The notes under the pieces are model-generated. The model did not search any database. It was not told the origin of the DNA and was given only the letters and a program-made list of their open reading frames with translations. From Nocardia sp. BMG51109 (GTDB taxonomy: Bacteria; Actinomycetota; Actinomycetes; Mycobacteriales; Mycobacteriaceae): 64,000 nt of DNA. Every line of letters starts with the position of its first letter. Position 1 is the stretch's first letter. The DNA is taken from the NCBI RefSeq assembly GCF_000526215.1, contig NZ_JAFQ01000004.1, positions 1,736,001 through 1,800,000 on the forward strand. The letters run 5' to 3'. The position numbers were made by a program, and so were the translations under genes. Shown here in pieces: positions 13,336-43,627 of the stretch.

Positions 13336-14519
13336 GGCGCCAGCCGATCGGTCAGCAATCCGTCCAGGTCCGATGCGGCGGGGGTGGCGGAATCGTCGGC
13401 GCGCCAGGCCGGTTCGATGTGGACCCGGCCCGTCGGATCACGGACAACCAGGCCGATCTCGCGCAGTATCCGGAAACCGTCGGCGCGGCGATGGACATGC
13501 AGGATCACCTGGACGGCCGCGGCCAGCTGGCTGTGCAGCGCCGCACGGTCCATCCCGCCCAGGGCCGCCAGGGCCTCCAGCCGGGCCGGCACCTCCTGTG
13601 GAGAATTCGCGTGGACGGTGCCGGCGCCGCCGTCGTGGCCGGTGTTGAGGGCCGTGAGCAGGTCGACGACCTCGGCGCCGCGGACCTCGCCGATCACGAT
13701 GCGATCGGGGCGCATGCGCAGCGCCTGACGGACGAGATCACGCACCGTGACCGCGCCGGCGCCCTCCACGTTCGCGGTGCGGGCCACCAGGCGGACCACG
13801 TGGGGGTGTGGCGGGGCCAGTTCGGCCGCGTCCTCCACGCACACGATGCGTTCCGCGGCATCGACCTTCGCCAGCAGGCCGGACAGCAGGGTGGTCTTGC
13901 CGGCTCCGGTGCCGCCGACGACGAGGAAGGCGAGCCGGGCCCGCACGATCCGCTCCAGCAGGAGCGCGGCCACGACAGGCACCGAGCCCGTGGCGGTCAG
14001 CGCGTCCAGCCCCTGACTGGCCGGCCGGAGCACGCGCAGCGACAGGCAGGTGCCGCCGTGCGCGATCGGCGCCAGGACCGCGTGCATCCGCACGCCGAAC
14101 GAATGTCCCAGCGCCCCTTCGACTCCCGGCAGCCGGCCATCCACCCACGGCTGCGCATCGTCGAGACGACGGCCCGCCGCCAGCGCCAACCGCTGCGCAA
14201 GCCGCCGCACGGACGCCTCGTCCGGAAAGGTGACCGGCGCCCGCCGCAGCCCGTGCCCGCGATCCACCCAGACCGCATCCGGGCCGGTGACCAGCACATC
14301 GGAGACGTGCGGATCGTGCAGCAGCGATTCCAGCACCCCCGCGCCGGTCAGCTCCGTCTGCAGCAGGCGCAGCACCCGCAGCAGATCGGTATCCCCCAGC
14401 ACCCCACCGGCTTCCGCGCGGATCGCCGCCGCCATCCGCGCGGGATCCAGCTCCGCGGACTCCGCCGCCAAGCGCTCACGCACCCGGTCCAACAGTTCGG
14501 CCGGGACGATCGCGCTCAT
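13332..14519 (-). CDS. tadA: TadA/CpaF-family pilus assembly ATPase
   Basis: 395 residues. N-terminal domain (PHVSDVLVTGPDAVWVDRG) then the secretion ATPase core: Walker A GGTGAGKTT (about 205), Asp box VCVEDAAELAP, Walker B RIVIGEVRGAEV, His box TALNTGHDGGAGTVHANS. A hexameric cytoplasmic motor that powers Flp pilus assembly. Its ATG overlaps the ssd stop (ATGA). Corresponds to Rv3659c. Confidence 0.93.
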   Translation of the reverse strand: MSAIVPAELLDRVRERLAAESAELDPARMAAAIRAEAGGVLGDTDLLRVLRLLQTELTGAGVLESLLHDPHVSDVLVTGPDAVWVDRGHGLRRAPVTFPDEASVRRLAQRLALAAGRRLDDAQPWVDGRLPGVEGALGHSFGVRMHAVLAPIAHGGTCLSLRVLRPASQGLDALTATGSVPVVAALLLERIVRARLAFLVVGGTGAGKTTLLSGLLAKVDAAERIVCVEDAAELAPPHPHVVRLVARTANVEGAGAVTVRDLVRQALRMRPDRIVIGEVRGAEVVDLLTALNTGHDGGAGTVHANSPQEVPARLEALAALGGMDRAALHSQLAAAVQVILHVHRRADGFRILREIGLVVRDPTGRVHIEPAWRADDSATPAASDLDGLLTDRLAP

Positions 14520-15625
14520 CGCTCCGGCTCCGACAGCACGGCGAGCACCGCCGCGGCGGCGGTGCGCAGCGGGCCACGTGGTGAACCCAGGCCGCCGCGC
14601 TCGAGCCGGGTCGCCAGCCCGGGCTGCGCGCGGACCGCGGCCAGCAGCGGCAGGCCCAGCGTCTCGGCCACCTCCGCCGCACGTAGACCTCCGGGTGCGG
14701 GACCTCGGACAACCAAGCCCTGGTGGGGGTTTCGACCGCGGACATGGGCAGCGACGGCTCCGGCCGCGGCCACCGAACGCAGTCGCGCGGGAACCACCAG
14801 CACCACCAGATCGGCGGCCTCGAGCATCCGGTCCGCCTGTGGGCCACGCTCCCCGGATACATCGCAGACCACCAGATCACCGGCCGATCGGCCGGCCTCG
14901 ACCACGGCGCGCACCGCACCCGCGCCGATCTCCGCCACCGACGCACCCGGACCCACCCGACCGCAGGCGAGCACCGCGAGCCCGGGAACCACCGGCGGCA
15001 AGGCATCGTGCAGCGCCGCTGCCGCCACCCGGCCCTGCTCGACGACGAGATCGGGCCACCGCAGGCCGGGCGCCGACTCGACGCCGAGCAGCAGGTCCAG
15101 GCCGCCGCCCAGGGGATCGCCGTCGACCAGGATCGTGTCGGGCCGGAACCGGCACTCGGCGGCGGTCCGCGCGACGGCCGCGGCGAACGTGGATGCCCCG
15201 GCCCCGCCACCCGCACCGACGACGGCCAGCACCACACCGTCGCCCGGAGCGCGATGGGTGTGCTCGGCAAAGCATTCGATCAGCAGGTCGGCCTCGTCGG
15301 GCAGCGCGATCACCTGCTCGGCACCGATCACGGCGGCCGCCTGCCACTCCGGCAGGCCGGGCTCGCCCTCGGTGACCAGCAGCGCCCCGTCGCGGCGCGG
15401 ATAGCCCGCGGCGTCGCAGTCGCACGCCGACGCCGTATCCAGAATCACCATGGCCGCACCGGCCCAGGCGTGCCGCCCCACCGGCATTCGGCCCTGTGCG
15501 AGGGGGCGATCGGCCGCGGCCGCCACCCGGCCGATCTCTTCTCGGAGCCGCTCGTCGGCGACGAGAACCAGCACGGGGTTCGACGGAGCGTCACCCGAAT
15601 CCAGGCTCGCAGCAAGGGAATTCAT
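14516..15625 (-). CDS. ssd: Ssd: septum-site-determining / CpaE-like protein
   Basis: 369 residues. An N-terminal receiver-like domain (VLVLVADERLREEIGRVAAA) is followed by a MinD/CpaE-like P-loop fold. The P-loop is atypical (VVGAGGGAGAST), lacking the lysines of canonical MinD, while LVDGDPLGGGLD matches the ParA/MinD switch region. Mycobacterial Ssd (Rv3660c) affects septum formation; in tad loci CpaE localises the pilus. First gene of the operon. ATG 15625 was chosen for the best N-terminal fit; GTG 15640 is possible. Confidence 0.85.
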   Translation of the reverse strand: MNSLAASLDSGDAPSNPVLVLVADERLREEIGRVAAAADRPLAQGRMPVGRHAWAGAAMVILDTASACDCDAAGYPRRDGALLVTEGEPGLPEWQAAAVIGAEQVIALPDEADLLIECFAEHTHRAPGDGVVLAVVGAGGGAGASTFAAAVARTAAECRFRPDTILVDGDPLGGGLDLLLGVESAPGLRWPDLVVEQGRVAAAALHDALPPVVPGLAVLACGRVGPGASVAEIGAGAVRAVVEAGRSAGDLVVCDVSGERGPQADRMLEAADLVVLVVPARLRSVAAAGAVAAHVRGRNPHQGLVVRGPAPGGLRAAEVAETLGLPLLAAVRAQPGLATRLERGGLGSPRGPLRTAAAAVLAVLSEPER

Positions 15626-15759
15626 GCCGATCAGCGTCACCCGGCGACGAGGGCGGCACCAGTGCCCGAGTGCCGAATGTGGATAACCACGGGGGTGTGA
15701 GCACAGAGTGCACCCCGAGTACCGCATAAAGAGAAGAACAACAGACCCCGAAATAGAGG

Positions 15760-15826
15760 ACGGCCCCAGCCGGGGGGGGAGGAGGCTGGGGCCGTCGGGG
15801 TTCAGCCCCGGGGGGTCGGGCTGAAC
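15760..15826. other. Two back-to-back hairpins between divergent genes
   Basis: Stem 1: perfect 12-bp arms at 15760-15771 and 15784-15795 with a G-rich 12-nt loop. Stem 2: perfect 9-bp arms at 15800-15808 and 15818-15826. They look like terminators but lie between two genes transcribed away from each other (ssd leftward, HAD phosphatase rightward), within a 383-bp gene-free region. They may end an unannotated transcript, attenuate a leader, or act as a DNA site. Confidence 0.7.
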
Positions 15827-15995
15827 GCGCCTGGACCATGTCCAGGTGCCAGCAATACTACACCCAGGCCCCGGCCGAAACGCAAGTCCGACCGCGACCG
15901 AGTTTCGTGCCCGGACATCGGGCGTAACGGTGGCAAACGACGCGAACCCGGCACCGGACAGCCGCCCCGACCACCACGGCGGCGCGGATTCTCCC

Positions 15996-16008: not shown

Positions 16009-16887
16009 GTGACGGCCGAGCACGACCTGACAGCTGCGGAGGATCGGACGAGCGCCACCGAGAGGGGCGCGCAGCGGCGATCCGCACCCGACGCGCGACC
16101 CGGCCGGGTCGCGGCATTCTTCGACCTGGACAAGACGGTCATCGCCAGATCCAGCGCATTCGTCTTCAGCAAGCCGTTCTTCGCTCAGGGCCTCATCAAC
16201 CGCCGGACCGTGCTGGAGAGCAGCTACGCGCACTTCCTGTTCCTGCTCTCCGGCGCCGACCACGATCAGATGGAGCGCATGCGCGAGCACCTGACCAAGA
16301 TGTGCGCCGGCTGGGATGTCGGGCAGGTCCAGGCCATCGTCGCGGAGACCCTGCACGAACTGGTGGACCCGCTGATCTACGCCGAGGCGGCCGATCTGAT
16401 CGCCGATCACAAGATCAGGGGGCACGACGTGGTGATCGTCTCGGCCTCCGGCGAGGAGATCGTCGGCCCGATCGCCGCGGCGCTGGGCGCCACGCACACC
16501 GCCGCCACCCGGATGGTCGTCGAGGACGGCAAATACACCGGCGCGGTGGACTTCTACTGCTACGCGGACGGCAAGGTCGAGGCCATGCGCCGGCTCGCCG
16601 AGACCGAGGGCTACGACCTCTCGCGGTGCTACGCGTACTCCGATTCGATCACCGATCTGCCGATGCTCGGCGCGGTCGGGCATCCGACCGCGGTCAATCC
16701 GGACCGAAATCTCCGGCGCGAGGCCGTTTCTCGCGGCTGGCCGGTGCTGACCTTCTCGAATCCGGTCTCCCTGTGGGCGCGACTACCTGCCCCGTCATCC
16801 ACCACGGTCGCCGCGACCGCGGTGGTGAGCGTGAGCGCGGTGCTGGCCGGTGCGGTCAGTTATCGGCTGCTGCGACGCCGGCGCTGA
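16009..16887 (+). CDS. HAD-IB family phosphatase (SerB/CicA-like), membrane-anchored
   Basis: 292 residues. Motif I FFDLDKTVIA (about 37-46, nucleophile Asp then DLDKT), motif II VSASGEE, motif IV YSDSITDLPML. The C-terminus carries one hydrophobic helix (VAATAVVSVSAVLAGAVSY) and a basic RRRR tail, so the enzyme is probably tethered to the inner membrane. The substrate is unknown; relatives dephosphorylate serine-like or lysophospholipid-type compounds. Corresponds to Rv3661. The gene directly downstream is the candidate Ms1 RNA. Confidence 0.9.
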   Translation: MTAEHDLTAAEDRTSATERGAQRRSAPDARPGRVAAFFDLDKTVIARSSAFVFSKPFFAQGLINRRTVLESSYAHFLFLLSGADHDQMERMREHLTKMCAGWDVGQVQAIVAETLHELVDPLIYAEAADLIADHKIRGHDVVIVSASGEEIVGPIAAALGATHTAATRMVVEDGKYTGAVDFYCYADGKVEAMRRLAETEGYDLSRCYAYSDSITDLPMLGAVGHPTAVNPDRNLRREAVSRGWPVLTFSNPVSLWARLPAPSSTTVAATAVVSVSAVLAGAVSYRLLRRRR

Positions 16888-16903: not shown

Positions 16904-16932
16904 TTGCTGTGACCGGGCCCACAGAGTAACAA
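16904..16932 (+). promoter_or_regulatory. Promoter of the Ms1-like small RNA
   Basis: TTGCTG (16904-16909), a 17-nt spacer, and TAACAA (16927-16932) form a good vegetative promoter. It starts 17 bp after the HAD gene stop and predicts transcription from about 16939. Confidence 0.6.
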
Positions 16933-16938
16933 TGGGAG

Positions 16939-17240
16939 CCAAGGAAGGACGGAAGGCCAAGGTCGGAGCGGAAGAGAAGGTTCGATCTCCCATCCCACCC
17001 TTCCGAGCACGGACGCCAGGCACCCACGCGGAGCACGCCGCGCAAGGGCAATAGCGTTGTGGGCTTGCGAACTCCGGGCATCCAGCGGCGAGAGCCTCGC
17101 ACAGGTTGTGGGGATGAACCGCGGAGGCGCGGACGGTCGCCGAGGCCGCAGAACACAACCCCGAGAAGCACGCATGGTAACCGGGTGGTCCGTGCTAGCG
17201 GGCGGTGAGGTCGCTAACGACAACGCCGCCCGCTTTGATG
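16939..17240 (+). ncRNA. Candidate Ms1/MTS2823 small RNA (6S-like, binds core RNA polymerase)
   Basis: In M. tuberculosis the abundant ~300-nt RNA MTS2823 (Ms1 in M. smegmatis) lies between Rv3661 and Rv3662c. Here the same two neighbours flank 368 bp with no reading frame of merit. A promoter predicts a start near 16939. A hairpin with perfect 9-bp arms (17197-17205 and 17226-17234), an inner GTCG/CGAC stem and a T-rich tail predicts an end near 17240, giving about 300 nt. The 5' part is purine-rich (repeated GGAAGG-like blocks). Ms1 binds sigma-free RNA polymerase core in stationary phase. Identity rests on synteny, size and signals, not sequence alignment. Confidence 0.7.
17197..17240 (+). 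terminator. Terminator of the Ms1-like RNA
   Basis: Arms AGCGGGCGG and CCGCCCGCT enclose a 20-nt loop with its own 4-bp stem, followed by TTGATGTGT. It also separates the RNA from the convergent gene ending at 17256. Confidence 0.7.
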
Positions 17241-17255
17241 TGTGGCGGTCCGCTC

Positions 17256-18005
17256 CTACGGGCCGCCGGCCGCGTCGGCGATCGAACGAGCCTCGCGCGC
17301 ACCGTCTTCCAGGGCCTCGCAGCACAGGACGACCCATCCCCCGACACCCTCCGGCGTACCGGCGCCGAACCCGGCCGCCGCGTCCAGATACGCCTGCCGC
17401 CGCCGGAGCTGGTAAACCTCGGGCACGCCCAGCCCGTGCGGATCCAGTCCACTCGACACGGTGACCAAACGGGACGCCGCCCGCGCGACGACACCGTCCG
17501 CGATGCCGAACGGCCGCAGCGCCATCAGCTCTCCGTGCACCACCGCGGCTACCACCGGAGCGGGGGCGGTGGAGGCCAGCAGGGTCTGGGCCAGCATGTC
17601 CAGGCGGTCGGCGACACCGGTATCGGGGCGGGGACGACCGAGCCGCTCCTGATCGTCGACGAGGTCGGCGGCGGCCAGCAGATGCAGCCGGGCGAGCGCC
17701 TGCAGCGGTGCTCGCTGCCACACCCCGACCAGGTTCCGCTGCGCTTCGCCGTCGAGGGCCTGGCCCACCCGCAGCGCCCCGGCCAGAATCGGATCGGCGG
17801 CGATGCCGTCCGGCGGCAACTCGGTGCTACCGCCGTCGATCGCCGACGACGAACGCGCCGCACGCACCGCCGCCTCGGCCGCCGTCGTCGGCCAGCCCCG
17901 CCGATTCGCCCGGTGCATATGCACCTCGGCCAGCGCATCGCGGGCACGATCGGCCGCCTCGCGGACACCGGGCAGCTCGACAAGGGGCTGGAGCACGTCG
18001 TTCAC
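17256..18005 (-). CDS. Degenerate Fic-like protein (Rv3662c family)
   Basis: 249 residues (Rv3662c is about 256). The stretch ARSSSAIDGGSTELP (about residue 52) resembles the SSxIEG segment of Fic proteins. HGELMALRPFGIADGVVARA (about 155-175) lies where Fic proteins have HPFxxGNGRxxR, but the catalytic His is Arg and the GNGR part is lost. It is therefore probably not an AMP transferase; a scaffold or regulatory role is possible. The Fic relation is my reading of the motif pattern. GTG 18005 has TAGCGT 8 nt upstream (18019-18014), consistent with a leaderless mRNA. Confidence 0.75.
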   Translation of the reverse strand: MNDVLQPLVELPGVREAADRARDALAEVHMHRANRRGWPTTAAEAAVRAARSSSAIDGGSTELPPDGIAADPILAGALRVGQALDGEAQRNLVGVWQRAPLQALARLHLLAAADLVDDQERLGRPRPDTGVADRLDMLAQTLLASTAPAPVVAAVVHGELMALRPFGIADGVVARAASRLVTVSSGLDPHGLGVPEVYQLRRRQAYLDAAAGFGAGTPEGVGGWVVLCCEALEDGAREARSIADAAGGP

Positions 18006-18087
18006 GACCCAACACGCTACTCGAGCACCCGGCGCCTCGCGCACGGCGTCACGGACACGCTCTGGCGGCGCGTGCCCGGACCCGCCG

Positions 18088-32110: not shown

Positions 32111-32271
32111 TGCGCTGCCCGGACGCAAAGTAGACTGCACTGTCGGCCGGATCGCTTCGGTCCAGGACAGACAGCGACAGCGCTGGGCTCGGAGGCGGCA
32201 GCGTGCGTGACAAACGCACAGACCAGCTGTCGCCCCAGGACAGCACTGCCAATCCCAAAAGGAGCACATTC

Positions 32272-32946
32272 GTGGACGAGGCCCTCGCCAGAGCAGGCAT
32301 CTTCCAAGGCGTCGAGCCCACCGCGGTCGCGGCTCTCGCCAAACAGCTTCAACCCGTGGATTTCCCGCGCGGCCACGTCATCTTCAACGAGGGCGAACCC
32401 GGCGACCGGCTGTACATCATCACATCGGGCAAGGTGAAGATCGGGCGCCGGTCCCCCGACGGCCGGGAGAATCTGCTGACCATCATGGGCCCGTCGGACA
32501 TGTTCGGTGAGCTGTCGATCTTCGATCCGGGGCCGCGCACCTCCACGGCCACCACGGTCACCGAGGTCCGCGCCGTCACCATGGACCGCGACGCGCTCAA
32601 GTCGTGGATCGATCAGCGCCCGGAGATCGCCGAGCAGTTACTGCGGGTGCTCGCGCGCCGCCTGCGCCGCACCAACAACAACCTGGCCGACCTGATCTTC
32701 ACCGACGTTCCCGGCCGGGTCGCCAAGGCGCTGCTGCAGCTGGCCCAGCGCTTCGGCACGCAGGAGGCGGGCGCGCTGCGGGTGACCCACGACCTGACCC
32801 AGGAGGAGATCGCCCAGCTGGTCGGCGCCTCCCGCGAGACCGTGAACAAGGCGCTCGCCGACTTCGCGCACCGCGGCTGGCTGCGGCTCGAGGGCAAGAG
32901 CGTGCTGATCTCCGACTCCGAACGGCTGGCCCGCCGGGCGCGGTAG
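32272..32946 (+). CDS. crp: cAMP receptor protein, CRP/FNR-type regulator
   Basis: 224 residues, identical in length to M. tuberculosis CRP (Rv3676). The cyclic-nucleotide-binding domain has [17 protein letters not shown]; the C-terminal winged helix has [20 protein letters not shown] (recognition helix [10 protein letters not shown]). A dimeric regulator binding TGTGA-N6-TCACA-type sites. GTG 32272 was chosen over an upstream in-frame GTG (32203) because AAAAGGAG ends 7 nt before it and it reproduces the family N-terminus. Confidence 0.96.
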
Positions 32947-43553: not shown

Positions 43554-43627
43554 CGGGGTGTGGCGCAGCTTGGTAGCGCGCCTCGTTCGGGACGAGGAGG
43601 TCGTGGGTTCGAATCCCGCCACCCCGA
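43554..43627 (+). tRNA. tRNA-Pro (anticodon CGG)
   Basis: Acceptor CGGGGTG pairs with CACCCCG. Anticodon stem CCTCG/CGAGG holds loop TTCGGGA (anticodon CGG). T arm GTGGG-TTCGAAT-CCCGC is almost complete. Discriminator is A; CCA is not encoded. Confidence 0.95.

Follow-up and report, generated by a model that had tools for sequence, protein, structure and literature searches.

The window, meaning the whole stretch of 64,000 nucleotides analysed, almost certainly encodes a Nocardia Ms1 RNA at 16941..17241 on the forward strand, as judged from sequence and predicted structure. The gene adds a further copy to a family that had been described from this genus before; the family itself is not new. 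The part that goes beyond the known family is a CRP-type dyad in the spacer of the Ms1 promoter, which gives a lead, open to test, on how the RNA is turned on. Taken as a whole, an Ms1 gene repressed by CRP through this dyad is the best explanation, with about an even chance of being right.

Identification of the Ms1 RNA gene

The RF02566 covariance model is matched end to end (model positions 1–304) by window positions 16941..17241 (+), with 135.2 bits and E 1.4e-35. Modelled length of the RNA is 301 nt. The match is the only one to RF02566 in the own genome at E 0.001. The Rfam gathering score is 162, so that a default Rfam search passes over this gene. Other Rfam matches in the stretch (P2, AaHKsRNA22) are at chance level, with E 0.88 and more. 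No 6S model is matched in the window at gathering scores, nor between 16700 and 17400 at E 5, and a reading as 6S RNA was set aside. Open reading frames of at least 60 aa overlap the stretch on both strands. The Rfam match and the structure counts nonetheless explain the stretch as RNA; a purely coding reading was rejected on the pairing and covariation counts given below.

A preliminary description, made from the sequence alone, had proposed a homologue of Ms1/MTS2823 of about 300 nt in a stretch with no gene. The homology is borne out by the covariance model, structure, length and synteny, and the length agrees with the model match. The stretch described as having no gene is crossed by the overlapping frames, but is accounted for as RNA by the match and the structure. 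The same description named covariance-model or structural alignment to Ms1 as its check, and this returned the full-length RF02566 match and a fold supported by compensatory changes. From family membership, the window Ms1 is expected to be transcribed and to bind core RNA polymerase.

Secondary structure

Predicted folding energy is −142.6 kcal/mol, against −128.0 ± 5.7 in shuffled sequences (z −2.57; 1 of 100 shuffles equally stable). The structure was examined in an alignment of 35 sequences, made up of 24 Nocardia loci and 11 hand-picked named loci (Antrihabitans, Rhodococcus, Prescottella, Mycobacterium/Mycolicibacterium, Hoyosella and one Mycobacteriaceae MAG), onto which the Rfam structure was transferred from the RF02566 match. 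Under this structure 87.8% of cells are paired in the 35 sequences, against 34.7–41.0% with partners slid by 1–3 columns. Two-sided changes occur at 37 of 95 pairs, against 22.0 in shuffles. None of five structure measures was reached by any of 500 shuffles. The compensatory changes support the Ms1 fold. RNAalifold, unaided, gives a similar layout with 71 pairs.

In the Rfam structure a long hairpin, opened by a central bubble, is accompanied by two other hairpins. The 5′ hairpin domain (16943..17004, +) contains helices 1–4, of which 1, 3 and 4 show changes on both sides of pairs. The long interrupted hairpin with the internal bubble, the 6S-like part, lies at 17005..17197 (+) and contains helices 5–14. 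A terminator-like hairpin at 17198..17233 (+), helix 15, has 6 pairs changed on both sides and is followed by TTTGATGT. Pairing is weaker in helix 12 (55.8%) and, at about 75%, in helices 1 and 8; certain individual pairs hold in few sequences. Helices 6, 9 and 10, the stems beside the bubble, are nearly invariant and therefore uninformative either way. The hairpin with its central bubble is shared with 6S RNA; its resemblance to an open promoter has been published for Ms1, and the layout in the window gene is the same. 6S RNA binds the sigma-containing holoenzyme, and differs also in that the window carries no match to its model.

Genomic context and distribution

The upstream neighbour, in the position of Rv3661, is a HAD-IB family hydrolase gene (16009..16887, +), with PF12710 and TIGR01490 over their cut-offs (TIGR01490 218.1 bits). 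The convergent downstream neighbour, in the position of Rv3662c (17256..18014, −; start codon uncertain), is named from its relatives as an oxidoreductase or Fic/Fido protein, the names being those of the best 120 of 4409 relatives. At E 0.001 its longer reading frame is matched by neither a Pfam nor an NCBIfam family. In published work, MTS2823 sits between Rv3661 and Rv3662c (PMC3207917), and the synteny of Ms1 is worded as HAD hydrolase, oxidoreductase and Fic/Doc (PMC9130861). This synteny is present in the window on both sides, and the placement between the two homologues given in the preliminary description is confirmed.

Further out, Ssd is annotated at 14516-15727, and a 6C RNA lies at 15755-15829 (−; RF01066, 70.3 bits), so that the HAD-IB gene is flanked by two conserved small RNA genes. 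Upstream of ncRv13660c a CRP site is given in PMC4117774; near the 6C RNA, a scan of the window found no TGTGAN6TCACA with up to one mismatch. Two tRNA genes (RF00005) are present at 1080-1152 (−) and 43554-43627 (+).

Forty genomes, the window's own included, were searched with RF02566 at E 0.001, and 25 gave matches. Full-length Ms1 is present in all 24 Nocardia genomes, at 132.8–168.4 bits; 5 copies score above the gathering score and 19 below, so the Rfam threshold passes over 19 of the 24 Nocardia copies examined. Genomes of other families gave a weak match in 1 of 16 (36.6 bits) and none in 15. A second, weak match of 28.7 bits in one Nocardia genome (L026 in G010) has no promoter and is likely due to chance.

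The preliminary description had also expected an extension beyond mycobacteria. This does not stand, as Nocardia has been in print since 2011: N. farcinica is named for Ms1 in PMC3207917 (2011), Nocardia and Rhodococcus in PMC4191392 (2014), and PMC9130861 (2022) counts 824 species of actinobacteria with Ms1 and lists Nocardia in its Table 4. Such RNAs bind sigma-free RNA polymerase core in M. smegmatis and S. coelicolor (PMC4191392, PMC9130861), and MTS2823 was found on polymerase in M. tuberculosis by RIP-seq (PMC11077062).

With Ms1 of M. smegmatis and MTS2823 (= ncRv13661) of M. tuberculosis the window gene shares the whole model, a length of about 300 nt, the flanking genes, the place of the promoter and the covarying fold. 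It differs in scoring under the gathering cut-off, as 19 of 24 Nocardia copies do. Ms1/scr3559 of Streptomyces coelicolor, which binds polymerase core (PMC9130861), is assigned to the same family by HAD-gene synteny. It is much more distant, and the likeness is one of synteny.

Promoter, terminator and spacer dyad

The −35 element TTGCTG (16904..16909, +) and the −10 element TAACAA (16927..16932, +) were read in the sequence, are separated by 17 nt, and occupy the same place in relatives. This promoter is exactly as first described. A generic sigma-70 scan of it found nothing and gives no score, so that the case for the promoter rests on conservation. A generic terminator scan at the 3′ end of Ms1 was likewise empty. 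Of the hairpin with a T-rich tail that had been predicted, the hairpin at 17198-17233 has compensatory changes; the tail, TTTGATGT, is only weakly T-rich.

A CRP-type dyad, TGTGACCGGGCCCACA, lies at 16908..16923 (+) and has 9 of the 10 arm letters of TGTGA-N6-TCACA. In the upstream alignment of relatives the 17-bp spacer carries the pattern TGTGA-N6-TCAC(A/G). The window copy alone is at chance level (2 matches with up to one mismatch in the window, 0.82 expected), and for this reason the dyad is argued from conservation.

Further Ms1 loci were picked by a 19-base pattern inside the RNA, which gave at least 120 stretches. Together with L025 and L026 these make 122 loci, of which 104 match a profile of the 24 Nocardia RNAs. 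Dropped were the 18 without a profile match, L025 (E 0.015), and L082 and L139 (upstream cut off); L033, partial and without a promoter, was kept. The 101 retained and the 24 Nocardia loci make 125, not all independent, since some named loci are the same strains as surveyed genomes (e.g. L107 and G007).

A promoter of the form TTG...-17-TA..A is present in 114 of the 125 loci; 9 have an 18-bp spacer and 2 have neither. At least 9 of 10 arm letters are found in 115 of 125 loci (among the matches listed), against 0.1% of shuffled upstreams, the shuffles preserving single-base composition only. The best dyad score is 10 in 48 loci, 9 in 67, 8 in 5, 7 in 1, 6 in 3 and 5 in 1; the five loci below 8 include Hoyosella, Lolliginicoccus and Prescottella. 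Named loci of N. wallacei and N. transvalensis (L031, L051) are one arm letter off, as the window is. Relative to the RNA start, the first base of the dyad is at −33 to −31 in 110 of 125 loci and at −23 in 10 more, the latter taken to be an effect of partial profile matches.

Column information was computed on 105 unique of 114 promoters, the 11 of 125 without a 17-bp spacer being left out. The TTG and TA..A columns are conserved by construction, because the alignment is anchored on them. In the 105 unique promoters TGTGA holds 1.40–1.79 bits and TCAC 1.42–1.77; the six centre columns hold 0.42, 0.28, 1.28, 0.51, 0.39 and 0.92 bits. Variants remain symmetric, with AGTGA...TCACT in L025 and L100. 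L025 is the locus of the 36.6-bit Ms1 match (genome G036, same order), and its upstream sequence is TTGAAGTGAGCTGGCTCACTGGGTAGAAA.

When loci were taken by the HAD gene alone, whether or not they hold an Ms1, promoter and dyad occurred together in 1 of 24 outside the home family. This sole case, L169 (genome G116, another family of the class), has a promoter with a GTGACCCACGTCAC dyad 55–58 bases past the HAD stop codon. In the own genome TGTGAN6TCACR gives 35 strand-hits (23 places); the reversed control gives 5 strand-hits. In this set of genera the dyad is probably an operator of the CRP/FNR family.

Retention and loss of the dyad in a sister genus, probably Mycobacterium

A sister genus in the survey (g18) is taken to be Mycobacterium because named Mycobacterium loci share its promoter type. 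A promoter pattern in which most −35 and −10 letters are fixed, as is the first G in the left arm, is found in 93 of its 118 genomes, at 94 places. The same pattern is present in at least 327 of 396 genomes of a second set. Among the 94 promoters GTGA and TCAC are both kept in 53 and both lost in 29; the right arm alone is lost in 4 and the left alone in 8. The arms are thus kept or lost together in 82 of 94, a count uncorrected for kinship. Of four loci found through the HAD gene, and so free of the pattern, two (L151, L153) lack the dyad and have an intact promoter. One or few events may account for the loss of both arms. Such a loss might explain the high growth-phase level of MTS2823. Most promoters with both arms lost share GTCTAG before the −10 element, as though a different element had taken the place of the dyad.

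CRP is kept in 117 of the 118 genomes, with or without the dyad. Two or more CRP-like genes are present in 37 of 52 genomes with an intact dyad, in 13 of 29 with both arms lost and in 2 of 12 with one arm (intact versus both lost, p 0.03, uncorrected for kinship).

Candidate regulator and proposed control

The candidate regulator is CRP, encoded in the window at 32203..32946 (+), with the cNMP-binding and Crp HTH domains PF00027 and PF13545. Its closest solved chains are CRP/FNR-family entries of the PDB, at 448.4 bits and less; 3i54 and 3d0s are presumably M. tuberculosis CRP. PF13545 is matched at 17 places in the genome, 7 of them over the cut-off; CRP has 65.4 bits and the next match 29.3, so that the gene at 32203-32946, 15 kb from Ms1, is the only strong Crp-HTH match. 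In 19 of 19 hand-picked genomes CRP is on the same contig as Ms1, its promoter or the HAD gene, 9.3–22.7 kb apart. This linkage may be plain regional synteny.

In the proposed mechanism a dimer of the CRP/FNR family would bind TGTGA-N6-TCAC(A/G) between the −35 and −10 elements, the CRP whose gene lies 15 kb off being the likeliest candidate. Bound on the spacer, the dimer would compete with sigma-A polymerase and block it. Ms1 would be kept low in growth and released once CRP leaves, and the storing of polymerase would in that case track the cell's cAMP/CRP state. Repression during growth is preferred because in M. tuberculosis repression is associated with CRP sites near start sites (PMC4117774) and because Ms1 of M. 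smegmatis increases about 130-fold as cells enter stationary phase (PMC4191392). The chances that a CRP-type protein represses Ms1 in growing cells are about even.

Several points count against CRP control. The window dyad is one arm letter off, five loci score below 8, and CRP is kept regardless of the dyad. Three CRP sites lying upstream of sRNAs in M. tuberculosis are given in the text of PMC4117774, and none of them is assigned to ncRv13661. According to the review PMC8628891, Ms1 expression depends in part on elements reaching out to −491, and the Ms1 level is affected by PNPase.

As to precedent, no CRP site at the Ms1 promoter is stated in the passages searched (e.g. of PMC3207917, PMC12709188, PMC4117774, PMC5360333, PMC4109619, PMC8628891). 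The term CRP was looked for in PMC11077062 and PMC9130861 and is mentioned in neither.

A reading of the stretch as something other than Ms1 (an sRNA of another kind, a coding region or a hairpin formed by chance) is very improbable. The score below the gathering score, the overlapping frames and the empty generic promoter and terminator scans speak for it; set against these are the full-length match at E 1.4e-35, the excess of paired cells over the slid controls, the kept synteny and the chance level of other Rfam matches. With Ms1 accepted, it is possible, if rather doubtful, that the spacer dyad is no CRP operator and is instead part of the promoter or the site of another regulator, e.g. 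another CRP/FNR-family member. The dyad overlaps the −35 element by two bases and fills the spacer, and spacer position 11, in the dyad centre, is also conserved (1.28 bits). Other regulators have been tied to the locus or to the level of the RNA: PMC4191392 reports LexA at the locus of MTS2823, and depleting CrsL had its largest effect on Ms1 in stationary phase (PMC12709188). Against this reading, promoters of this type that have lost both arms do exist, among them L151 and L153, which were found without the promoter pattern; the arms fit the CRP pattern as an inverted repeat, and their variants stay symmetric.

Activation rather than repression by a CRP-type protein at the dyad is an improbable reading. 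Speaking for it is MTS0997 of M. tuberculosis, another mycobacterial sRNA with a putative CRP site and higher levels in stationary phase, whose expression is lost when CRP is absent (PMC3207917). Its putative site is 107 bp upstream of the start (PMC3207917), whereas the Ms1 dyad lies inside the 17-bp spacer, where a bound protein would block polymerase, and near-start CRP sites are tied to repression (PMC4117774).

Significance

The sigma factor and the regulators of the Ms1 promoter are called unclear in PMC4191392. A CRP-type dyad that is fixed in position, and absent from some members of one genus, points to a candidate regulator. With natural pairs that have and lack the dyad, the question of regulation can be put to the test by a binding assay and with a deletion strain. 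In Nocardia, in much of Mycobacterium and in close relatives, CRP may directly repress Ms1, with cAMP setting the polymerase reserve, and a mycobacterial subset may have dropped this control by losing both arms; the chances for and against this are evenly balanced. If it is true, more Ms1 during growth would be predicted in mycobacteria without both operator arms.
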